Assembly: GCA_029834535.1 (NCBI GenBank) | Contig: JAQMWT010000006.1 | Coordinates: 116,080 to 180,079 of the forward strand | Direction: 5' to 3' | Length of the DNA: 64,000 nucleotides | Origin: Chrysophaeum taylorii | Taxonomy: Eukaryota > Sar > Pelagophyceae > Pelagomonadales > Pelagomonadaceae | Shown: positions 35,942-53,092 of the stretch, piece by piece | Layout: the number at the start of each line of letters is the position of its first letter | How positions within the stretch are numbered: position 1 is the stretch's first letter | The notes under the pieces: model-generated | Told to the model about the DNA's origin: nothing | What the model saw: only the letters and a program-made list of their open reading frames with translations | Databases searched by the model: none | Made by a program: the position numbers and the translations under genes

Positions 35942-36979
35942 CAAGTGCAGGCCAGTAAGTTCGCCAGTAAGTTCACCTGGTCCCAATCTCTAACCCCAGT
36001 AAGTTCACCTGGTCCCAGTAAGTTCACCTAGTCCCAATCTCTAACCCCAGTAAGTTCGGCGTAAGCCCACTCGTGCTCACATCCACTCACCCCACTCTCC
36101 TTCGAGCTCGTCGCTCTCACCTCCGCCAATCTAAGCTGCTTTTATCCGTACACGCCGCTGCCGATCATCACAAAACCCAGTAAGTTCACTTGGTCCCAGT
36201 AAGTTCACCTGGTCACTAACTTCACCTAGTCCCAATCTCAAACCCCAGTAAGTTCACCTGGTCCCAGTAAGTTCACCTACAGTGCGCGTGTAGACGCCGG
36301 GAGGGGGCTTATAGGTATTGCGCAGCACGTGTGGGGTAGGGTGGAGTCGTCGACTCAGAAGAGGATATCCTCGGGGTTGCCGATCGACAGAGAGCCACGT
36401 AGAGCTGGACGTGGCAGAAGACGGGCTTCGCCAAGAGGACGCCGACCTCGCGGGGCGTCTGGCCCTGGCTCTTGGTGATCGTTCGGCGTCGGCGGGCCTT
36501 ACGGGATACAGGTTGGAGGAGCCTCGGTGACAACGACACGATCGATCATGTATCTGGTACCGTTGCAGTGGCCACGCGACGGGTCGAGATTGCGAAGACA
36601 TTAAGCTCGCGATCAAAGTCAGCATGCCGTTGGTTGTCAGGGAGTTGAAAACTCTACTGTAAAGAGCGAGGCGTCGTCTTCCGACCCAGCCTAGTCAGCC
36701 GAAAAGAACTCCGACGCCTCGTCTCCGGGAAAAAAAGGCCGCGGTCATGCGCGCGTTGTCAACATCGACAACATCGTTTCGACGGGGCGTCAGAATGGCG
36801 CGCTGAAAGAGCCGCCGCGGGTCGTGGAAATAGTCTGCGAGGTCGCCGTAGACGGCTTGGAGGATCACTGTCTGGCTCTCGCGCCTACCTGATCCTTACT
36901 CTCGCGCCTATCTGATCCTTACCCTAAATCGAGGGACAGACAAACAGACAGACAAACATCTGTCGATTAGTAGTTAGGA
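35942..36979 (-). mobile_element. Helitron-derived non-autonomous element, copy 8
   Basis: Head-to-tail with the preceding 5' fragment (junction 35941/35942). Complete layout on the minus strand, ending GTAGTTAGGA at 36979 directly beside the first copy of the coiled-coil gene block. Confidence 0.85.
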
Positions 36980-36980
36980 C

Positions 36981-37867
36981 AGCGGTGCCGTTAGAGAGGG
37001 TGTTCGTACCGTGCATAATAAAGGGCCACGATGAGGGTGGAGTTCTGCTTCTCGCGGGAGTAAAATCCCGCTCAAGTTCACACCAAGGCCCCGCCTTGTT
37101 GCGGGTGCCACGGCCACTTGTTCTTCTTCGCATTCGCCGCCTTCTCCTCCTTCTTGGCGTCCGCGTAGAGATCAAGGATTTTGGTACCGAAGGGCACGGC
37201 GAGGATCATGTACGTCAGCAGGTCCAGGCGCCTGTCGAGCTTGTTGAGCTCGTCCTTGAGCTCTTTGAGCTCGTCCTTGACCTCGTCGAAGCGCTTGTCG
37301 ACCTCGTCCTTGAAATCGTCGAAGCGCGCGTAGACTTCCTTTCGAGAGGGCGGGAGCAATTCTTTGCGTTTCTCCTCCGCGAGCAGGCGTTCGTACTCGG
37401 CCTTTTGCCTGGCTGACTCGAACCCTTCGGCTTTGGACTCGAAAAATGACGTTTCGGAGATGGCGGCGGCGGCCTCCACACCCTGGACAGCCGACACCGC
37501 CACGAGGCCCGCGATCACCATCGCGCTCGCCGTCTTCGCCGCGCCCTGGCGTACGAGAGGCGCACGACCGACACGAGGCTCGCGCGGTCCTCCTAGATCG
37601 ACCGCGGAAGCTAAAGCGAGAGCTAGTAGTGCAACGACCCGCGTCATCGCGCACCTCCTGCCTGCCTACTGTACTACTGCCCCCTGCTTACCCTGAATCT
37701 ATTGACCGCCGCCGACATACTATGTTTTGGCTTCTGGTCTGGGGACCCCTAATGATTGTCCTCCACCACCTGTGGCGTAAGGAGAATTTTTAGGGGCTAC
37801 CTGGCGTGCCTTCGAATCCTGGCTCGCCGATCGCGTCCGTGCCCTTGGTGGGATCACTGGACGAGGA
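36981..37867. repeat. Duplicated block, copy A
   Basis: The block from GCGGTGCCGTTAGAGAGGGT (3' side of the gene) through the gene to GGCTTCTGGTCTGGGG and GGATCACTGGACGAGGA is repeated at 40265-41430 (copy B) and, up to CCCCTAATGATTGTCC, at 47077-47840 (copy C). The copies are nearly identical, so the duplications are recent. Confidence 0.9.
37078..37647 (-). CDS. Coiled-coil protein with plastid-type presequence, copy A
   Basis: 189 residues. Signal peptide MTRVVALLALALASA, a basic stretch (GGPREPRVGRAPLVRQ), then a second hydrophobic segment (ASAMVIAGLVAVSAVQGVEA) ending in an Ala-rich site: a tripartite arrangement suggesting thylakoid or plastid membrane targeting (inference). A long charged coiled coil follows (SARQKAEYERLLAEEKRKEL, then KDEVDKRFDEVKDELKELKD), then a short hydrophobic segment (LTYMILAVPFGTKILDLY) and a basic tail. 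Copy A has one DKRFDEV unit. Its stop is seven codons later than in copies B and C because TAA has become CAA (HPQQGGALV). No family recognised. Three copies in 10 kb differ mainly in the heptad repeat number. Confidence 0.65.
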   Translation of the reverse strand: MTRVVALLALALASAVDLGGPREPRVGRAPLVRQGAAKTASAMVIAGLVAVSAVQGVEAAAAISETSFFESKAEGFESARQKAEYERLLAEEKRKELLPPSRKEVYARFDDFKDEVDKRFDEVKDELKELKDELNKLDRRLDLLTYMILAVPFGTKILDLYADAKKEEKAANAKKNKWPWHPQQGGALV

Positions 37868-40264
37868 TAGGGTCGGATAAGGAACTCGGGGGTCCCGCGC
37901 CGGGGCCGAAAATCCCCAAGGATTGGCGGGCTTTTTTGTCCGTCGCCAAGTTGACCCAAAATGGTGCCGATTTTATCTTGGAACGAAGTCCGTAGCTGCC
38001 GATTTGGCGAATCTACTTGGGAGTGAGGTATTTTGGCGCCTCGGTGGAGGCGGGGGCCTAGGTGGCTCTACTCTGCACGACGCCATCGGCTCCAAATACA
38101 ACAACCGGCGCATCGGGAATGTCCGTAGGCCCAATGAGGGTCGTGTGGGCGCTTAGACGGCGCCTTTTGTTCGCTGGGGCCAGTTCTAGTGTCCTCGTCT
38201 TTCCGGGCGTCCTCGGGAGACCGGCGTCGGGGCCCGCGAACGCAGCTATGCGTAGTCGTCGTCGTCGACGTCCATCGCGTCCTCCTCCTCCTCCTCGTCG
38301 TCGTCGTCGTCGTATTCGTTGTCCTCGGACACGAAGCGCCAGGAAGCCGGCTTGGAGCCGTTGAAGAAGGTGGGGCGGTTCGTGAGGAGCCACCCGCTGA
38401 AACCGTCGTCATAGGAAACGAAGATCCAACCCAGCCCGAGTTTCTTGCGACCGTCCTTGGAGTTTTCGTCGAATACCGCCTCGATGGTGCCGGGCATCCA
38501 GTAGCAGCCCGGGTGCCCCGACAACTCCCAGAGAACCTCGACGCTTGACCCGACCAACGCCACGTCAATCGTCGGTACCTTCGAGCGGCCACTCGTCGAC
38601 GTCACCGTATCCCACGGCGAGGGCGACGGCGGCCTCGTGAAGGACACCCATCTCGGAGCGCAGGTCGCGAATGAAGCGTGCGGACGGGAGCTCCATGTCG
38701 CGCACTCGCTCCGGGCCAACGACCGCCTCGACGACCGAGACCAGGACCTCGGGGATTTCCGCAGGCGCAACCCGCGAGGCGAGCAGTTTCATACACAGCA
38801 CCCTGAGCTTCGAGTCCCACGGAGTACCCTTGCCGGATCCCTTGCCGGACGGCTTCCGCGGTACCCACACTTCGGCGTTCTGCTTCTCGAGGACCGCGAC
38901 CCGCTCCCGCAGCCGCTCGATCTCCTCCTCCCGGGCCTGGACGCGGTCCTCGGCAGCCGCGAGCTTTATCTCCATTTGCTTCGCTTCCTGGTTGAGGGCG
39001 GCGTAATTGTTCTTGAGTTGTCGCATGGCCCGAGGGTCCGATTTCTTCAGTCGGTTCCTCTCCCGAAACTCGGCCGCCGCCGCAGCCTGTCTCGCCGCCT
39101 CGTTCGACTGGGCCTTGGTCGCGTTGAGCTCGTCGATGGCTCGCTGCAGCCTCGCGGCATCGCGGTCGCGCTGCTTCTCATTGGAGGCCTGGTGGCGTTC
39201 GATGCGGACCTGGAGCCGTGCCTCCCGACGTGCGGCATCCCGGACCTCGTCCTCGTACTTCCACTTGGCCTCGAGACGCGCCGCGTCTGCCTTGGCGGCC
39301 GCCATTTCCGCGGCGAAGGCGTCGGCGTGGGCTTCTTTCGTCTCGCGTTCGGCGGTGACAGAGCGAGAGTGCTGAGCCGTCTTGGCCGCCGTGAGCTTGT
39401 CGACCGTGCTCCGGAGTTTCGACACCTCCTTCTCGAGCTCCGAGATCCGCACATTCGAGTCCGACGACGACGACAGTGTGGAGATAACCGATGACCCACT
39501 CGATCCAAGCGTCGGACGCGCTGGCCGTCCGGGTGGTAGTCGCCGAATCGGGGGTGTCGTTCTCCTTGTCGGGCTTGGCCTTGACGTGGGAGAACGGGAC
39601 GCGGATCTCTCCCTGCTGAATCGTTTTCACGTCGTATGACTCGACCCGACACACAGTGTTGTTGTAGATTAGGCCCAGGACAACGCCGTTGCCGCCCTGG
39701 ATGTTGTGCCCCGCCGAGAAGTCGTGCTCGATGAGGACCTCGTCCCCGCTCCGGATGGTTGTCTTGAGAGTCCTAGTTAGCGACGCGGAGATCCGGGCGA
39801 GAACGGCCGTCGCGCCCTTCGTCGTGTGTAGCTTGCTCGGGGTGAAGTCGTCCCGGCACATTTTCGAGCACACGTAGAACTTGTCGGGCAGCTCGCCCTC
39901 GATATTCAGGAGTCGCTCCAGGTCGAGCGGCTGGCCCCTGGCCGTCTCGTCGGCGTCGAGCCTCGCTACGCAGCACACGCACTCTCCCCTCAAGAGGTTT
40001 TTTCGCCGTTGACGTTTGGCAGCGGGTTTTTTCGACACTTTCGTCAACTCAGCCGGGACCGAAGGGTCCACAGGGGTTACAGAAGGACCCGGGGCCGACT
40101 CTTTGCTCGTTTCGGCCGATTCCATGGGCGGAACGCCGATTTTGTGATTTTGCAGGCTATGTTTGAAACATAGCCTAAGACAATCCACTTTTGAATGAGG
40201 GTTTCTCGTTTGGTGTTCGAAATGTAGGCTAGGGCCTAGTTTTGAGCTTTCTTATCCGACCCTA
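37868..40264 (-). mobile_element. 2.4-kb TIR element carrying one gene
   Basis: Bounded by TAGGGTCGGATAAG (37868-37881) and CTTATCCGACCCTA (40251-40264), the same 14-bp inverted repeat as the 260-bp MITEs. The right end shares 18 bp with them (CTTTCTTATCCGACCCTA). The flanks do not show a target duplication (ACGAGGA against GTTAGAG) but belong to copies A and B of the same host block, which suggests recombination after insertion. The interior encodes the protein at 38246-40125. Confidence 0.75.
38246..40125 (-). CDS. Cys-cluster, coiled-coil, tudor-like protein of the TIR element
   Basis: Read from Met 40125 (MESAETSKESAPG). Order: basic low-complexity region; Cys cluster (GECVCCVARLDAD ... 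FYVCSKMCRDDF); a beta-rich block resembling a chromatin-reader or KOW fold (SGDEVLIEHDFSAGHNIQGG, VCRVESYD); frame switch near 39500; long coiled coil (ISELEKEVSKLRSTVDKLTA to IERLRERVAVLEKQN); helical block (SARFIRDLRSEMGVLHEAAV); frame switch near 38585; a tudor/agenet-like block (VEVLWELSGHPGCYWMPGTI, GWIFVSYDDGFSGWLLTNRP); acidic tail (EEEEEDAMDVDDDDYA). No DDE catalytic motif is visible. The Cys cluster plus coiled coil resembles N-terminal parts of large transposases, so this could be a deletion derivative or a gene cargo. The family is not recognised. Confidence 0.55.
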
Positions 40265-40370
40265 GTTAGAGAGGGTGTTCGTACCGTGCATAATAAAGGG
40301 GCACGATGAGGGTGGAGTTCTGCTTCTCGCGGGAGTAAAATCCCGCTCAAGTTCACACCAAGGCCCCGCC

Positions 40371-40943
40371 TTATTGCGGGTGCCACGGCCACTTGTTCTT
40401 CTTCGCATTCGCCGCCTTCTCCTCCTTCTTGGCGTCCGCGTAGAGATCAAGGATTTTGGTACTGAAGGGCACGGCGAGGATCATGTACGTCTGCAGGTCC
40501 AGGCGCCTGTCGACCTTGTTGAGCTCGTCCTTGAGCTCTTTGAGCTCGTCCTTGACCTCGTCGAAGCGCTTGTCGACCTCGTCGAAGCGCTTGTCGACCT
40601 CGTCCTTGAAATCGTCGAAGCGCGCGTAGACTTCCTTTCGAGAGGGCGGGAGCAGTTCTTTGCGTTTCTCCTCCGCGAGCAGGCGTTCGTACTCGGCCTT
40701 TTGCCTGGCTGACTCGAACCCTTCGGCTTTGGACTCGAAAAACGACGTTTCGGAGATGGCGGCGGCGGCCTCCACACCCTGGACAGCCGACACCGCCACG
40801 AGGCCCGCGATCACCATCGCGCTCGCCGTCTTCGCCGCGCCCTGGCGTACGAGAGGCGCACGACCGACACGAGGCTCGCGCGGTCCTCCTAGATCGACCG
40901 CGGAAGCTAAAGCGAGAGCTAGTAGTGCAACGACCCGCGTCAT
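40371..40943 (-). CDS. Coiled-coil protein with plastid-type presequence, copy B
   Basis: 190 residues, nearly identical to copy A. It has two DKRFDEV units (KDEVDKRFDEVDKRFDEVKD) where A has one, TAA after KNKWPWHPQ, and small substitutions (NKVDRRLDLQ, VPFSTKILD). The same 3' flank begins ATTGCGGGTGCCACGGC. A MITE (41052-41311) lies in its upstream flank. An intact frame in all three copies suggests the protein is under selection or the duplications are very young. Confidence 0.65.
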   Translation of the reverse strand: MTRVVALLALALASAVDLGGPREPRVGRAPLVRQGAAKTASAMVIAGLVAVSAVQGVEAAAAISETSFFESKAEGFESARQKAEYERLLAEEKRKELLPPSRKEVYARFDDFKDEVDKRFDEVDKRFDEVKDELKELKDELNKVDRRLDLQTYMILAVPFSTKILDLYADAKKEEKAANAKKNKWPWHPQ

Positions 40944-41051
40944 CGCGCACCTCCTGCCTGCCTACTGTACTACTGCCCCCTGCTTACCCTGAATCTATTG
41001 GCCGCCGCCGACATACTATGTTTTGGCTTCTGGTCTGGGGACCCCTAATGA

Positions 41052-41311
41052 TAGGGTCGGATAAGAAAACGAGACTAGCCCACGCCGAAACGACGGGTCC
41101 TACAACGCGTGGGCTTTTTTCCTTTTTTTGCGTAAGGGGACGAAAGGATGCCGACTTCACTATGGGGACTAGTTCCATCGCGACGATCTCGCGGCGTGGC
41201 GGCACATACTGCTTGAGTACAAATGAACATAGCTCAGCGATCCGTTGAGTATGTCTTAGCGCAAACTGAAACATAGTTAACGGCTCGTACGAACTTTCTT
41301 ATCCGACCCTA
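41052..41311. mobile_element. MITE copy 2 (260 bp, 14-bp TIR)
   Basis: TAGGGTCGGATAAG and CTTATCCGACCCTA with 7-bp duplication CTAATGA (41045-41051 and 41312-41318). The empty site is seen in block A (GGACCCCTAATGATTGTCC near 37745), which proves the insertion and its exact limits. Confidence 0.95.
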
Positions 41312-41430
41312 CTAATGATTGTCCTCCACCACCTGTGGCGTAAGGAGAATTTTTAGGGGCTACCTGGCGTGCCTTCGAATCCTGGCTCGCCGATCGCGTC
41401 CGTGCCCTTGGTGGGATCACTGGACGAGGA

Positions 41431-41670
41431 TGGCCGTTCTCCCGCCACGCGACCACAAACAACTCCCGCGCCTGGTCCTCTAACTTGAGGACCGGCTGTT
41501 GCTTTATGATCAAGGATATATCGAAAATAGGAAATCAGGGTGACATGCGTCACGGAAAAGGAAGATGATGTCATAGAGAACACTGACATCATCGGAACGG
41601 AGTAGGGTGCCCCTGATAAGGGGGGGGCTAGAAGAGGGGTAAGCCTTAGGAGGCGGGAGTTGCCGCCACA
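41431..41670 (-). repeat. 3' LTR of the gypsy element
   Basis: TG...CA limits, placed after the pol stop and a purine-rich tract. The junction with host block B (GGATCACTGGACGAGGA) fixes its outer end. There is no second LTR in the window to confirm it, only a partial match at 552. Confidence 0.6.
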
Positions 41671-41714
41671 GGACTCACTCCCCTGGTAAGAATTCGAGCT
41701 GCCCCAGCGAGGTG

Positions 41715-44700
41715 CTAGCGCGAGGAGCGCGGCTTCGCCTTACGAGCATCTCGTGAACGAATCTTCTGGTAAACGCGGGTGATGATCGGTTCAGGAACTC
41801 GACCACTGCGTAAAGTAAACTTGGGTATCAACACATCAATCTCGTGCGGAGCGAAATCCGTGACACAAGGAGTTGTGTTGGAGGAAATTCGGGACTTGTC
41901 GGTGAAACTTCGACCTTCAACGTCCTTGAACTCGGGCTTGAGCTTGCGGTGCGAAAGGTGAGAGGTCGGTTTGAAATAAGCGACATCATCGTTCGGACCC
42001 AAATCAGAATAGAAATGTAGAGCAACACGATCATTTTGGTAATCGTAAGGCTCGTAAACTTCGGCAACATAAATCTTCTTGCGCCAATCAGAGCGCTTCC
42101 GGTCAGGAATCCGGAAAACAACAAACTTACCGTGCTGATAATCATCACGGAAGGTTTCTTCGGGTTTGCGGATGGTTTGATCAACGATCGGAGGTACCAT
42201 CACCGGCGTGATCTGACTGACATGAACCCGTCGTTCTTCGGGTGGAGAGTCGAGAGACTCAATCCTATAGGTGACCGGGGAAAGGCGTTCCTTGATAATA
42301 AACGGTCCTCGCCATTCCGGTCGAAGTTTGTTCTGAAGGAAAGGAATGTAGAGCAAAACGTGCGATCCTTCCTTGTATTCAACATCAACATGATCAGCAT
42401 TGTAGGCCAATCGTTGTTTCTTCAAAGCTTTATCACGAGCCTCGCGGACGATCTTTGTATAATATTTCAATCGTTCACGAGTTTCGGCAACTGCATCAGA
42501 GCGAGTCTTCGGCAATAATCGTGTATCAAAATCCATGAGCGTGTAGTCAGTCGGTAGCATCGGCTGACGGTTCAGGCGCGGCATAAAGGGAGAAATCTGC
42601 GTGCCTGGAATAAACTTGCGGTTGTAGCAAAACGCAATATAATGAGCAAAGTCAGGGCAATCCGGGATGTTCCGGCCTTGAAGGCAAGCACGGAGGAAGG
42701 CCTTGATAAATCGGTTGACACGCTCAGCCGGGTTCGACTGGGCATGATAAGGAATCGTAGTTTGGTATCGTGTGTTAAAGAGATGGCAAAACTCGCGCAT
42801 CAATTTGTTCACGAACTCTTTACCGTTGTCGGTACGAATCATCTGGGGCAAGTAGCCCTTGAGAAGGATGTTAATGACAAAAGACTCGAGGACAGACTCA
42901 GCAGTCTTATCGTTCAAAACATCCAGAATCAAGAAATGCGAGAACGGATCAAAAAATACTAGAAGATACGTCTCGGGACCAGCGCTGGGCAAGGGTCCAA
43001 ATAAATCCATGCAAAGAACAGCACCATCACCGTCGTAGACGGGATGCTGCAAGAGTCCAGCTCGTTTCGGCTCAGGCGTACGAGCTTTCTGGCAAACTAA
43101 GCATTCAGCAATGAAGACTCCAACTTCGTTCGACATGTGAGGCCACCAAAATCGTTCTTGGATAGCCTGGACGGTACTGTGACGTCCCATATGACCACCG
43201 TTAACCGGAGTGTCATGATAGAGTCGAATAATGCGCTTGCGCAACGTAGCAGGTGCAACAATCATCGGGTGCGAATCAGCAGAAATGCGGTAAAGAACAT
43301 CTTTAACGACTTCGAATCGTTTGTTCGCTCGGGAACGTCGCGGCGTCTGACCTTGGGCCATTCGGTAGCGAATATCCTCGCAAGTAGCATCAGATTCTTG
43401 CTCACGTGCGATCTCAGCGAGCGTCATATTATCGGGTATCTTATCGATATAATCTTTGTAAGCGGCTGCGTCCTTGAAGATCTGTGGCTCATCACGCGCA
43501 CGGTTCTTCCGACGTTGTCTCGTAGCGTGAGACGTAGCCAATTTCATCGGATCCTTTTCAGGGTCTTCGTCTTCGTCTTCCGGCAGTTCGGTCGTAATAA
43601 ACGACATTATGAAGTGGCAGCCGGAGACGGGAACTCCTCGGTCATCAACAGGTCGGGGAAGCTCTTGGAACACTAAATACGCGTGGTTCAAAGGTTCTCC
43701 AAACTCGTCAGTCTCGATGACATGATCTATCGGATTGCGGGAGAGACAGTCAGGGATACTCATTCCCGGTGACTTTCCCGGCTTGTAACCAAGTTCAGGG
43801 TAAAATTGGCGAGGCGCATCGCCCAACGAGCAAGCTGCCCAGACGAGTGCGTCGCCTTACGTAAAAACGTCAAATTTCGGTGATCGGTCTCCAAAACAGT
43901 ACGGTGCCCTTCGATGTAGGCTCGAAAGTGCTCTAGAGAAAGTATAGCTGCCAACAGCTCTAGCCGACGGGGCTCATAATTCCGCATCTCCTTCGGCACA
44001 GCTCGGCTCCAGTATTCAATTACTCGTTCTTCTCGAGTCACTCTTCCGGCATCGTCCTTGACTTCGACAATCTGGAAGAGATATGCTCCAAGTCCATCCT
44101 TGGAAGCATCGGATCGGATCTGAAAAGGCAGATCATAATCGGCGTGGTAGACTCCACGGGAATCAACCAAAGCTTCAATAATCGTATCCCAAGCTTTCTG
44201 ACACTCGGGCGTCCACTCGAACTTTACACCTTCGAGGCATAATCGTCTCAACGGTTCCACAATCTTCGAGTAGCCCTTCACATATCGCCGGCAGTAATTA
44301 CTCATGCCGATGAAAGAGCGTATCTGGGTTTTCGGGGAAGTATTCGGTAAAGTACCTGGAATCGGCATCTTCTGCAGTGCTTCCAGCGTCTTCGGATTCG
44401 GCTTCAAGCCTTCTGGGGTAAAAAATGTGTCCCGGAAATTCTATATCATCCTTGAGAAGGTGGAACTTCGCGGTTCGAAAGCTGTACCCTCTCTGTGCCA
44501 AATGACACATCACTTCGATCAAAACTTGTAAATGTCGATGAAGATCGTCGGATCCCATCATAATATCGTCAACAAACGCAACCAAGTCTTGATACATCCA
44601 CTTCGAAAGGTCGCTCGCCATTTGCTTGCAGAAGAGAGCTCCGGCCGTCTTCACCCCTAGAGGTAATCGCAAGAAACTATGAGCGCCAAGTGGGCTAACC

Positions 44701-45678
44701 ATCGTGACAGCGTCCTGCGCTGCCGGATCCAGACGAAGGTTGTGGTATCCCCATCTAATATCAATGCATGTCCGCCATCGTCTCATCGCGAGAAAGGCTA
44801 AAGCATCATCTTGTCGAATGTTTGGCCAACTGTCATTGACCAATTGATCGTTGAGCTGACGTAAGTCAACTGCAGCACGGAACGCGTTTGACGTTCCAAT
44901 CTCAGCTCCTTTCTTCGGAAGCATCAACACAGGAAAGCCCCAAGGTGAGTTGGCCGGACGAATGACTCCATCCCGGCACCACTCGCTGATCTGCTTGCGG
45001 AGACAATCGAGTTTCGCAGGCGTCAATCGGTAGGGCGTCATCTTAATCGGTCGCGGATTCGCGTCTTTGAATCGTAGAGACACAGGAGGCGAGTCCACAG
45101 GTCTCATAATCGGGTCGAAAAAGGCCCAAGAATATTGCACACAGTGACGGAGCATCAATTTCGCCTCGTCATCTAAGTGCGGATTGTCAGGAATTCCCAG
45201 CTCCTGCACAACCTTGTCAACTTCTTCCTTCGTAGGAATTTGAACTTTCATCGCTTCGTTGTCCTTGACATGCTCAGGAGTCTGCGGCAGTGGTGCACCC
45301 TCGGCATCGCGCGGCGCATTTTTTCCATGGCACATCGAACTTTTTCTCGTATTTTTGTTTCACTTCCGGGTGGCTTTTGTTGATCCTCTCGCCTTTGACA
45401 CGAACACTCGGCTCGCTCTTAATGTTCGGTTCCTGATCTCGCTCAGGATTTGGCGGAACGTCTAAATTTGGTTGTCGGGGGGGGGCAGCAGAAGAAGCAT
45501 GAGACGTCCCCGGCTCATCTGTTGCAGGCGGAATGAACGGTACCTCTGGAGGTTTCCATTTGGTGAGATCTTGAAGATCATCATTCGACACCCATCTTAC
45601 GACACGTGTGCGCGTGTTTAACAGCGGAACTTGTACGTGACGAAGGGTGGTGTCATCAATTTGTAAAAAAATAATCAA
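41715..45678 (-). pseudogene. Ty3/gypsy pol: RT, RNase H, integrase
   Basis: Four overlapping open stretches form one polyprotein. A linker (45274-45678; VPLLNTRTRVVRWVSNDDLQ) is followed by RT (DCLRKQISEWCRDGVIRPAN, RAAVDLRQLND, FLRLPLGVKTAGALF and the catalytic FVDDIM near 44570), RNase H (QIRSDASKDGLGAYLFQI, LETDHRNLTFL) and integrase with an H-H-C-C zinc finger (CLVCQKA) and the acidic triad in CMDLFGPLP, RTDNGKEFV and NPAERVNRF. The last ~130 residues match 1-516. Frame switches occur at A6 (near 45318), T6 (near 44425) and TTGG (near 43795), each one base, and at the linker start. These could be sequence errors; residues are otherwise well kept. Confidence 0.85.
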
Positions 45679-46807
45679 ACGGTCGGTCTGCAGGACTCAA
45701 CGCTGACGGCAAAGCTTCGCCGCTCAGGTGAAATTCCTTGGTCACAGAGTTGTGCAGATCGAGCATTAATAAGGCTATCGTGTCAGGTGGCACGACGGAC
45801 GCCAAGTGTTTCAACGAGGTCGTCTTGGATAAGCCGGCCCAATCAAAACCAGGGGGCATCGTCAGCAACTCCGAAGTCATTTTCATATTCAGAGGTCTGT
45901 AATCGGAACGGTGCGATCCTACGCGAAGCGGGACACGCGTAACGGTGTAAGCTGCGTCTGTCGCGGCTCGTGATGATCCTAAATTGTTCATCTGAAGTAA
46001 ATGTCGTTCGTCGGCGTAGCCAAGTGCTGCGGCGAACTCTTGCTGCATATTCTTGCAAGTCTTTGGAACTGCGCGCAAATGGAGCGGATGGCTGGAAACC
46101 AACAATCGCACGCGACAGCTCATCAAACTGGGCGTTATGTCGTAAAAATTGACGACGTATACGTACGGGTGCAAACGTGCAACGTAAGAAATAATCGAAG
46201 CCTCCTGCTCTATCAACCACATGAAGAAACCTGCCATCTTGCATAATTTCATCGTCCAGTGGGTAGCGGTAACTCCTTTCCCAACATCTCTGGAGGTCAA
46301 GTTGCACAGAGCGGAGTGTACGCAGGGTGGCGACGCGACACACATCGACGACGACCATTCCGCGTAGGGTAAATAGGATTCGATCAACCGCAAGGTTGTA
46401 ACATAGCGACCACACAGTGTGTGCTGCACCACAGGAATATTCGTAAAGTTCTTGGGGTGGATCTGGTTGGCGGTGTCCGACGCATCGAGTGCTAGCACGA
46501 CTCGAAACGACGTGCCACACGTTTCGTTGGCTCGTTGGAGACCTAAAGTAATGCCTCCGGCTCCACTGAACAGCATCACCACCTTGCGATAAGTGATTGG
46601 AAGCCATTGAACCTTTTCATATCGGCGGCGGATCTCCGCTTCGGTGATCTCGCGGCATTTCTTTTCATCTTCTTCCGACCTTCGAGCGAAATCGTTGCTG
46701 CCTTCAAGTCGTTTGAGGGTGGACTTGTCCGCCATAGCGGTCGTAGCGTCCTTCTGCACCGTGCTCAGCAACATCGGCGGTCTTGGGAGATCTTTAATCG
46801 TGCTCAA
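45656..46807 (-). CDS. Cytosine-5 DNA methyltransferase domain of the gypsy element
   Basis: 383 residues. Motif I VVMLFSGAGGITLGL (about 76-90) binds S-adenosylmethionine; motif IV has the catalytic Cys in CVASPPCVHSAL (Cys162); an IEQEAS segment (about 199-204) stands where ENV usually is; MSCRVRLLVSS (about 229-239) corresponds to the QxRxR motif; VPPDTIALLML lies where motif X is expected. The C-terminus runs into the pol linker: the DNMT frame stops in FDYFFTN at an A7/T7 run (45664-45670), and one base would fuse it to FLQIDDTTLRHVQ and so to pol. The frame is open upstream to the truncation point at 46820, so an N-terminal part is missing. Such enzymes methylate DNA; in a retrotransposon it may affect silencing of the element or host DNA. 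Confidence 0.85.
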   Translation of the reverse strand: MSTIKDLPRPPMLLSTVQKDATTAMADKSTLKRLEGSNDFARRSEEDEKKCREITEAEIRRRYEKVQWLPITYRKVVMLFSGAGGITLGLQRANETCGTSFRVVLALDASDTANQIHPKNFTNIPVVQHTLCGRYVTTLRLIESYLPYAEWSSSMCVASPPCVHSALCNLTSRDVGKGVTATHWTMKLCKMAGFFMWLIEQEASIISYVARLHPYVYVVNFYDITPSLMSCRVRLLVSSHPLHLRAVPKTCKNMQQEFAAALGYADERHLLQMNNLGSSRAATDAAYTVTRVPLRVGSHRSDYRPLNMKMTSELLTMPPGFDWAGLSKTTSLKHLASVVPPDTIALLMLDLHNSVTKEFHLSGEALPSALSPADRPFDYFFTN

Positions 46808-46820
46808 ACGAGCGTAAACT

Positions 46821-47061: not shown

Positions 47062-47191
47062 TAATTATTATTTTACAGCGGTGCCGTTAGAGAGGGTGTT
47101 CGTACCGTGCATAATAAAGGGGCACGATGAGGGTGGAGTTCTGCTTCTCGCGGGAGTAAAATCCCGCTCAAGTTCACACCAAGGCCCCGCC

Positions 47192-47722
47192 TTATTGCGG
47201 GTGCCACGGCCACTTGTTCTTCTTCGCATTCGCCGCCTTCTCCTCCTTCTTGGCGTCCGCGTAGAGATCAAGGATTTTGGTACTGAAGGGCACGGCGAGG
47301 ATCATGTACGTCAGCAGGTCCAGGCGCCTGTTGACCTCGTCGAAGCGCTTGTCGACCTCGTCGAAGCGCTTGTCGACCTCGTCCTTGAAATCGTCGAAGC
47401 GCGCGTAGACTTCCTTTCGAGAGGGCGGGAGCAGTTCTTTGCGTTTCTCCTCCGCGAGCAGGCGTTCGTACTCGGCCTTTTGCCTGGCTGACTCGAACCC
47501 TTCGGCTTTGGACTCGAAAAACGACGTTTCGGAGATGGCGGCGGCGGCCTCCACACCCTGGACAGCCGACACCGCCACGAGGCCCGCGATCACCATCGCG
47601 CTCGCCGTCTTCGCCGCGCCCTGGCGTACGAGAGGCGCACGACCGACACGAGGCTCGCGCGGTCCCCCTAGATCGACCGCTGAAGCTAAAGCGAGAGCTA
47701 GTAGTGCAACGACCCGCGTCAT
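47192..47722 (-). CDS. Coiled-coil protein with plastid-type presequence, copy C
   Basis: 177 codons from ATG 47722. Same presequence and tail as copies A and B, but the coiled coil is shortened: KDEVDKRFDEVDKRFDEVNR runs straight into RRLDLLTYMILAVPFSTK, with the KDELKELKDELNK segment missing. The duplicated block around it ends at CCCCTAATGATTGTCC near 47840, earlier than in A and B. Frame intact. Confidence 0.65.
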   Translation of the reverse strand: MTRVVALLALALASAVDLGGPREPRVGRAPLVRQGAAKTASAMVIAGLVAVSAVQGVEAAAAISETSFFESKAEGFESARQKAEYERLLAEEKRKELLPPSRKEVYARFDDFKDEVDKRFDEVDKRFDEVNRRLDLLTYMILAVPFSTKILDLYADAKKEEKAANAKKNKWPWHPQ

Positions 47723-47840
47723 CACGCACCTCCTGCCTGCCTACTGTACTACTACTGCCCCTTGCTTACCCTGAATCTATTGGCCGCCGCCGACATACTA
47801 TGTTTTGGCTTCTGCTGGTCTGGGGACCCCTAATGATTGT

Positions 47841-51901: not shown

Positions 51902-52953
51902 CAAGTGCAGGCCAGTAAGTTCACCTAGTCCCAATCTCTAACCCCAGTAAGTTCACCTGGTTCCCAGTAAGTTTCATATAAGTTCACCTGGTCAGTAAGT
52001 TCACCTAGCTCACACCAACTCCTTTGAGCTCGTCGCTCTCGCCTCCGCCAATCTAAGCTGCTTCGATCCGCACGCGCCGCCTACCTTTGAGTGAGTTTAC
52101 TCTAAAAACCCTTTGCTCTAAAACCCCAGTATGTTCACCTGGTCCCAGTAAGTTCACCTGGTCACTATATTCACCTATCCCAATCTCAAACCCCAGTTAG
52201 TTCACCTGGTCCCAGTAAGTTCACCTACAGTGCGCGTGTAGACGCCGGGAGGGGGCTTATCGGTATTGCGGAGCACGTGTGAGGTAGGGTGGAGTCGTCG
52301 ACTCAGAAGAGCATATTCTCGGGGTTGCCGATCGACAGAGAGCCACGTAGAGCTGGACGTGACAGAAGACGGGCTTGTGGGCAAGAGGACGCCGACCTCG
52401 CGGGGCGTCTGGCCCTGGCTCTTGGTGATCGTTTGGCGTCGGCGGGCCTTACGGGATACAGGTTGGAGGAGCCTCGGTGACAACGACACGATCGATCATG
52501 TATCTGGTACCGTTGCAGTGGCCGTGCGACGGGTCGAGGTTGCGAAGACTTTAAGCTCGCGATCAAAGTCAGCATGCCGTTGGTTGTCAGGGAGTTCAAA
52601 ACTCGACTGTAAAGAGCGAGGCGTCGGCTTCCGACCCAACCTAGTCGGCCGAAAAGAACTCCGACGCCTCGTCTTCGGGAAAAAGGCCGCGGTCATTCAT
52701 GCGCGCGTTGTCAGCATCGACAACATCGTCTCAACGGGGCGTGAGAATGGCGCGCTGGCTAAAAGAGCCGCCGCGGGTCGTGGAAATAGTCTGCGAGGTC
52801 GCCGTAGACGGCTTGGAGGATCACTGTCTGGCTCTCGCTTCTACCTGATCCTTTACTCTCGCGCCTAACCCGATCCTTACCCTAAATCGAGGGACAAACA
52901 GACAAACAAACAAACAGACAGACAGACAAACATCTGTCGATTAGTAGTTAGGA
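51902..52953 (-). mobile_element. Helitron-derived non-autonomous element, copy 9
   Basis: Complete on the minus strand, 51902 to 52953, between the MFS start and the 3' end of the channel gene. The same insertion is present in the inverted copy (61711-62707), so it predates the duplication. Confidence 0.85.
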
Positions 52954-53092
52954 AATCCGTTGGTGTTTTATGATGTCCCGCGCAGGCGGCTGGACACCAC
53001 CACACCTTTAGTAGTAAGGAGGTGTTTTCCGCCGCGCCACCTCCAGAGTTTTGTGGCGGCGATGGCTCCCACCACCACCACCGGTATTATTA

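Follow-up and report, generated by a model that had tools for sequence, protein, structure and literature searches.

A Ty3/gypsy retrotransposon of Chrysophaeum taylorii with its own predicted cytosine-5 methyltransferase domain

Cytosine methylation often silences transposons, and an element that carries a methylating enzyme turns this host weapon into a tool of its own. Such elements were described in 2018 in a report covering two host lineages (de Mendoza 2018, PMC5890265), which, with its follow-ups, is what a search for earlier accounts yielded. KnitGypsy-Dnmt3 of Klebsormidium nitens is a long terminal repeat (LTR) Gypsy element with an intronless cytosine-5 methyltransferase (C5-MTase) in its Pol open reading frame (ORF); it is under purifying selection with its catalytic residues kept, its DNA methyltransferase (DNMT) belongs to the Dnmt3 group and its repeats have a DIRS-like arrangement. 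In dinoflagellates the same source reports many DNMT copies per genome within retrotransposons, namely SymbioDIRS-Dnmt3, whose DNMT sits in the reverse transcriptase (RT) ORF, and SymbioLINE-Dnmt. The excerpt of PMC12344493 says Copia where PMC5890265 says Gypsy. A general sentence in PMC6338049 has Ty3/Gypsy and DIRS elements encoding DAM or DCM occurring in stramenopiles, among others; the excerpts of PMC9998398, PMC12344493, PMC6338049 and PMC12477816 describe no particular stramenopile gypsy or copia element with a C5-MTase. Here we analyse a Ty3/gypsy family (family A, with its domain DNMT A) of the pelagophyte Chrysophaeum taylorii, a copy of which lies in the window, that is, the whole 64,000-nt stretch of contig JAQMWT010000006.1 under study (assembly GCA_029834535.1, positions 116,080 to 180,079).

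Family A resembles KnitGypsy-Dnmt3 in having a C5-MTase in a gypsy Pol ORF, purifying selection and kept catalytic residues. It is set apart, as far as the excerpted description of KnitGypsy-Dnmt3 goes, by a plain LTR pair and by a motif VI that reads EQ and not ENV. With the dinoflagellate elements it shares many retrotransposon-embedded DNMT copies; SymbioDIRS-Dnmt3 is however a DIRS element with a tyrosine recombinase, whereas family A has an rve DDE-type integrase, and SymbioLINE-Dnmt has a LINE backbone without LTRs, whereas family A has both LTRs and an integrase.

The minus strand of the window from 41334 to 46820 is occupied by a single member of the family in the order DNMT, linker, RT, RNase H, integrase (IN), 3′ LTR. 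The DNMT ORF (45656..46807) contains FSGAGG and ASPPC and matches PF00145 (E 1.3e-5, 25.3 bits, cut-off 22); the C5-MTase domain itself (45725..46585) carries motifs I FSGAGG, IV ASPPC, VI IEQ, VIII RVR and X VPP. On the same strand follow the linker ORF (45274..45678), which has no Pfam match above cut-off and is in frame on both sides in three other sequences (L063, L065 and L002), and the RT ORF (44298..45335; RVT_1, E 2.7e-13), the final ~33 residues of which are out of frame. The RNase H region ORF (43760..44407; PF17917, E 3.9e-26, and PF17919, E 8.1e-23) and the integrase ORF (41715..43826), with its H2C2, rve core and C-terminal domains (Pfam E 1.8e-18, 2.9e-12 and 1.7e-7), complete the coding part. 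These matches, in Pol order, agree with the first-pass annotation, which had read here a Ty3/gypsy element and a C5-MTase with FSGAGG and SPPC. Compared with solved proteins, the RT, RNase H and IN of a copy on contig C5 gave Ty3 Gag-Pol (7q5b, E 1.7e-69) as the top match and Ty3 RT (4ol8, 1.6e-48) as the next; 7q5b was again top when the RT part of the profile was taken from relatives. The sequence evidence thus supports a Ty3/gypsy LTR retrotransposon with its own predicted C5-MTase domain.

The family is abundant. Its counts are lower bounds and not exact copy numbers, yet some contigs are duplicated (the window's own contig, C6, and C268 are one locus). At least 107 places in the genome match the DNMT (107/107 scored; 1073 candidates), at least 117 match the RT, most of them only up to residue 312 (117/117 scored; 1388 candidates), and at least 63 match the integrase (63/63 scored; 1641 candidates). 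A DNMT, counting both listed DNMT matches and weak PF00145 matches, is listed on the same strand and at most 4 kb upstream for 68 of the 117 scored RT matches, and in 55 of these 68 the spacing is 324-346 nt. Upstream DNA was read for 8 of the 49 RT matches without a listed DNMT, and in 7 of the 8 the DNMT is broken (frameshifted) or truncated. In two copies on C5 (C5:548425, frame of 3063 codons, and C5:524367, 3067 codons) the DNMT, RT and IN lie in one open frame each.

Copies with both LTRs, which the first-pass annotation had proposed to look for, were found on C477 and C5. The LTRs of the C477 copy (L063) are 336 and 335 nt long, the difference being a single C in a C-run, and GCACA flanks the element on both sides; this copy was therefore inserted recently. 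Its frame is without most of RNase H and IN. The terminal pair is the sole direct repeat of at least 80 nt in this copy (L063:1-9900), and no inverted repeat of that length is present in it. The C5 copy also has an LTR pair, but its 5-nt flanks do not match, thus a target-site duplication is seen in one of two copies. The first-pass annotation had the DNMT occupying the place of gag and protease. This is not supported: the 5′ part of the element is gone from the window copy, and longer copies have, by eye, LDTG and later LLGGRDI (protease-like) as well as gag-like, zinc-finger-like sequence upstream of the DNMT. A Pfam search of this upstream region gave no gag or protease match. We note that, upstream of the protease-like region, the gag differs between L062 and L063; by eye, a capsid-like stretch and a zinc-finger-like motif in L063 give way to a different acidic stretch in L062.

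The catalytic residues of the DNMT domain are conserved. Residues G82, G84, G85, D108, P161, C162, E200, R232, R234 and P340 are invariant in all 36 rows compared, which represent 35 loci (L001 and L002 are one locus). Motif VI, IEQEAS, had been singled out in the first-pass annotation as unusual; it is real and kept, with the Glu in 36/36 rows and the following Gln in 13 of 14 aligned rows. In Dnmt3 this motif reads ENV. The Cys-Glu spacing is 38, equal to that of Cys81-Glu119 in M.HhaI. The ratio of nonsynonymous to synonymous rates (dN/dS) is 0.24 (435 pairs) over 30 A1 rows that are stop-free and, except for L063 and L065, the closest to the window, such that decayed copies are under-represented; between A1 and A2 the dN is 0.143 and the dS near saturation. 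The DNMT of family A is under purifying selection. A row of family A3 (L079) scores 38.5 bits with PF00145, as against 25.3 for the window copy. A structure was predicted with AlphaFold from an alignment of family copies and four relatives that included no known MTase. Its best VIA matches are M.HaeIII, DNMT1, M.HhaI and DNMT3, with the fold scores tied among DNMT1, DNMT3 and the bacterial enzymes; at the level of this model, the domain is shown to have the C5-MTase fold. The N-terminal extension of the DNMT ORF (46586..46774, minus strand) corresponds to residues 1-76 of the C477 model, where the predicted local distance difference test score (pLDDT) is mostly below 50. DNMT A differs from the solved C5-MTases M.HaeIII, M.HhaI, DNMT1 and DNMT3A/B in its sequence (11-17% identity), its motif VI EQ and its setting in a retroviral-type polyprotein.

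Homologue searches with the DNMT alone, using the single sequence or the first alignment, gave nothing at E ≤ 0.01, and no DNMT homologue was found in IMG/VR contigs. Only the search with RT, RNase H and IN reached relatives, returning 40 proteins (7992 candidates scored). A hidden Markov model (HMM) of the DNMT domain matches four of the 40 (E-values computed for 40 sequences): P0002 (5e-62), P0006 (2e-45), P0005 (9e-29) and P0001 (7e-11); for the remaining 36 E is above 1. The domain precedes RT in each of them. P0002 is from a JGI contig (2057 amino acids), P0006 from an ENA contig (2160) and P0005 from MMETSP (2018); P0001 is MMETSP1165, taxid 284809, the pelagophyte Chrysocystis, and its match covers the C-terminal part of the DNMT only. 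P0002, P0005 and P0006 are 22-30% identical to family A and keep the Cys, the Glu, the motif II Asp, both Arg and the Glu-Gln of motif VI. None of the four reaches the PF00145 cut-off (P0002 13.3 bits; no match for P0001, P0005 and P0006). Outside the family's own RT clade, the homologue, IMG/VR and 40-relative searches gave no homologue of DNMT A.

In the second RT tree (36 rows, with P0006 kept and six long-branch rows dropped), P0001, P0002, P0005 and P0006 form a clade with family A, A3, P0003 and P0004, on a long stem, with support of 100/100 and in 100% of 200 bootstrap trees. The first tree, which had those six rows in and left P0006 out for its short RT, contains the same clade. A DNMT domain is present in 6 of 6 testable clade rows, P0003 and P0004 beginning too near the RT to cover its position. 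P0003 and P0004 are labelled as bacterial metagenome-assembled genomes and are probably misbinned eukaryotic DNA. On these sequences the simplest reading would be a single ancient acquisition, no later than the base of this gypsy clade, and not a recent capture in this host.

The genome also holds a second DNMT-bearing family, the Ty1/copia family B. In its example (L047:487-3423 and L082:1-3810; G000:C96:63096-69842) a single frame of 1952 codons comprises a protease-like stretch (by eye), the DNMT, a weak rve (E 0.0029, below cut-off) and RVT_2 (E 3.5e-39), in copia order. This DNMT has LPCQ, ENV and motif X and matches PF00145 at E 4.2e-8. A search with it gave 83 match rows in 74 places. 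The PF00145 search gave 121 matches, of which 56 have another profile span and were taken as family B; 30 of those 56 coincide with a family B place or lie no more than 1.5 kb from one. Both B motifs are found in 23 of the 28 loci L033-L060, the others being L040, L041, L051, L053 and L060. The two families are alike in their high copy number and in having the DNMT after a protease-like stretch (by eye), but B has the copia order and a DNMT with LPCQ and ENV whereas A has the gypsy order with SPPC and EQ, and the two DNMTs have no profile similarity (hhalign P 0.32). As part of the wider and doubtful proposal given below, two acquisitions of such dissimilar DNMTs, by gypsy and by copia and each directly after a protease-like stretch, would amount to convergence on a shared need within this genome.

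Among the PF00145 matches read, a set in which intron-split genes could be missed, only two C5-MTases outside elements were recognised; from their motifs we take them to be DNMT2-like (L031) and DNMT5-like (L032). No second copy of L032 appeared in a genome search. Matches on C260 and C57 were considered as further host DNMTs and proved to be family A3. Beside the DNMT2-like gene an ORF (L031:691-2316, minus strand) resembles, when read by eye, a fucoxanthin-chlorophyll-type light-harvesting protein, as would suit a chromist alga.

What might the enzyme do? We favour, with rather more confidence than doubt, a family polyprotein of the order Gag-protease-MTase-RT-RNase H-integrase (gag and protease by eye) in which the MTase marks the element's own complementary DNA (cDNA). 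The parts of this Gag-Pol model from DNMT through RT and RNase H to IN are seen in that order in one frame. The element's protease would free the MTase or leave it joined to RT, and the enzyme would be packaged with RT in the virus-like particle, where it could methylate cytosines in the freshly made double-stranded cDNA, either ahead of integration or during it. The mark might make the cDNA resemble self to a host that reads 5-methylcytosine; alternatively it might seed methylation at the new insertion, to be kept thereafter by a host enzyme of the DNMT5 type. Copies would thereby be quiet and tolerated until released. DNMT5 is reported to be a maintenance enzyme in work on Cryptococcus. The excerpts of PMC5890265 have retrotransposon DNMTs as capable of de novo CG methylation and propose the marking of cDNA.

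Several observations weigh against cDNA marking by an active family-wide enzyme, in addition to the choice of rows for dN/dS and the two clade members whose sequences start near RT. There is no CpG depletion, the observed/expected ratio being 1.22 in the element vs 1.21 elsewhere in the window. Nor do the 29 copies compared show an excess of C>T differences at CG (CG 0.018, CHG 0.021, CHH 0.024); a CpG footprint could be masked if the copies are young or deamination is slight. Confidence in the predicted structure is limited, with a mean pLDDT of 68.6 for the best model of the second AlphaFold run and 57.9-62.5 for the other four, and a first run on 14 close copies without distant relatives reached only 32. 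Motif IV reads SPSC in P0002 and P0006 and TPDC in P0005, which also lacks the glycines of motif I, such that at least this relative may be inactive. Lastly, one of the 8 upstream regions read (L073) has no DNMT; from its sequence it is probably a deletion derivative and not a DNMT-free sublineage. In L073 (G000:C105:118593-119992) the DNMT-RT linker adjoins gag-like, zinc-finger-like sequence, with neither a DNMT nor protease-like sequence present.

Action on RNA, either the genomic RNA of the element or its tRNA primer, by an active MTase in a DNMT2-like manner is unlikely in our estimate, though several comparisons lean towards it. Motif IV is SPPC, a reading shared with the DNMT2-like L031 of the host (SPPCQPHTRQ), to which the domain aligns with an hhalign P of 2.4e-4 over motifs I-VIII vs 0.28 for the DNMT5-like L032. 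The top Foldseek row of the predicted model is human DNMT2 (E 6.7e-12), and the domain profile finds, weakly, one prophage C5-MTase and four DNMT2 in the PDB (E 0.07-0.41), along with two unrelated monooxygenases (0.71 and 0.93). RNA is also discussed as the target of SymbioLINE in the excerpts of de Mendoza 2018 (PMC5890265). The fold matches to M.HaeIII, DNMT1, M.HhaI and DNMT3 are nevertheless equal or better, and the motif VIII-IX region is modelled like that of enzymes which have a DNA target-recognition part, as would suit a DNA substrate. A DNMT2 origin of DNMT A was considered on these weak hints and not adopted; DNMT2 is absent from the best 50 VIA rows, which does not exclude it.

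It is improbable that the domain is inactive and retained as a nucleic-acid-binding module, a chaperone or targeting part of Pol. Some retroelements do retain inactive enzymatic folds, and P0005 has lost the glycines of its S-adenosylmethionine loop, but the Cys, the Glu and both Arg, which binding alone does not need, are invariant in 36/36 rows and in three distant relatives. We give similarly little credence to an enzyme working in trans to methylate and silence competing elements or host defence loci instead of its own cDNA. The abundance in the same genome of a DNMT-bearing family of another superfamily, Ty1/copia, is what an arms race would give; an enzyme embedded in Pol would however be expected in particles with the cDNA and not free in the nucleus. 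Chance, that is, a gypsy element lying next to a DNMT gene of host or viral origin, or joined to one in assembly, could not be excluded from the window alone with its frame breaks and has now a negligible probability: the scored matches (at least 107), their almost constant spacing, the fusion of the frames and an unchanged domain order in the RT relatives P0002, P0005 and P0006 exclude it, and place the DNMT in the element, where the first-pass annotation had put it, and not in a neighbour.

An orphan-type enzyme kept over a whole gypsy clade, with a pelagophyte member and others from MMETSP and from JGI and ENA contigs, looks like a core function and not a curiosity. The sequences suggest that elements with this DNMT domain may long have been able to write epigenetic marks themselves. 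A wider proposal, which we regard as doubtful at present, is that a deep gypsy clade retains the MTase as a constant part of Pol in protists far removed from each other, and that in hosts like this one, with one DNMT5-like and one DNMT2-like gene as the only C5-MTases recognised outside elements, the elements supply de novo methylation that the host DNMT5 copies. Should this host prove to lack a de novo enzyme, where its de novo methylation comes from could be put to the test.

The window copy changes frame at four junctions, DNMT/linker, linker/RT, RT/RNase H and RNase H/IN. The first-pass annotation held that correcting a single base would fuse the DNMT to pol. The fusion stands, as a single open frame of 848 codons with both the DNMT and the RT motifs exists on contig C268 (L002); the single base does not, since the DNMT, linker and RT ORFs are in three different frames and two frame changes therefore separate DNMT from RT. 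The C268 sequence is the same locus, with 0 mismatches and 2 gaps over 4145 aligned columns. Given its one-frame DNMT and RT, the first two breaks in the window are probably assembly or sequencing errors. The other two look like decay of the window copy; C268 shares the out-of-frame RT tail (100% identity to residue 345). The two ~180-kb contigs, C6 and C268, thus agree over the 4.1 kb compared, and probably either both haplotypes or a contig in duplicate are present in the assembly, which may inflate the copy numbers.

At its 3′ side the window copy ends in an LTR of 337 nt (TGTGGCG...CGCCACA; 41334..41670, minus strand), which agrees in its ends with the C477 and C5 LTRs and is 94% identical to the C477 LTR over 295 nt. 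Between the LTR and the IN stop, a gap (41671..41714, minus strand) contains a purine-rich tract that may act as a polypurine tract. At the 5′ side, 46 nt (46775..46820, minus strand) match L063:5101-5146 and L062:516-561. They are what is left of the spacer that precedes the DNMT and mark the truncation point of this copy, which is without gag, protease and 5′ LTR and stops at 46820 within that spacer. In L062 and L063 the match sits ~480 nt further upstream of the DNMT, and ~480 nt of spacer are accordingly missing from the window copy at 46775-46791. Of the span first given for the element, 41431..46820, the 46820 end is right, whereas 41431 falls inside the 3′ LTR and the true end is 41334.

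Beyond the 3′ LTR the window continues with GGTGGTGGAGGA (41322-41334), which in the C477 and C5 copies adjoins the inner edge of the 5′ LTR, at the position of the primer-binding site. A 99-nt LTR end with the same GGTGGTGGAGGA continuation is repeated at 37770-37868 (region 37749-37868). Recombination or duplication seems to have shaped the locus. Three copies of a block flank the element on both sides (36990-37868, 40265-41431 and 47086-47814) and are more than 90% identical over most of their length. At 40371-40943 and 47192-47725 the block codes for a signal-peptide-like protein in which KRFDEVD-type repeats vary in number. A second pair of repeats, of ~1 kb each, lies ~15.95 kb apart at 36013-36986 and 51910-52960. 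This pair is rich in CAGTAAGTTCACCTGGTC-like words, and many further pieces of it are found elsewhere in the window.

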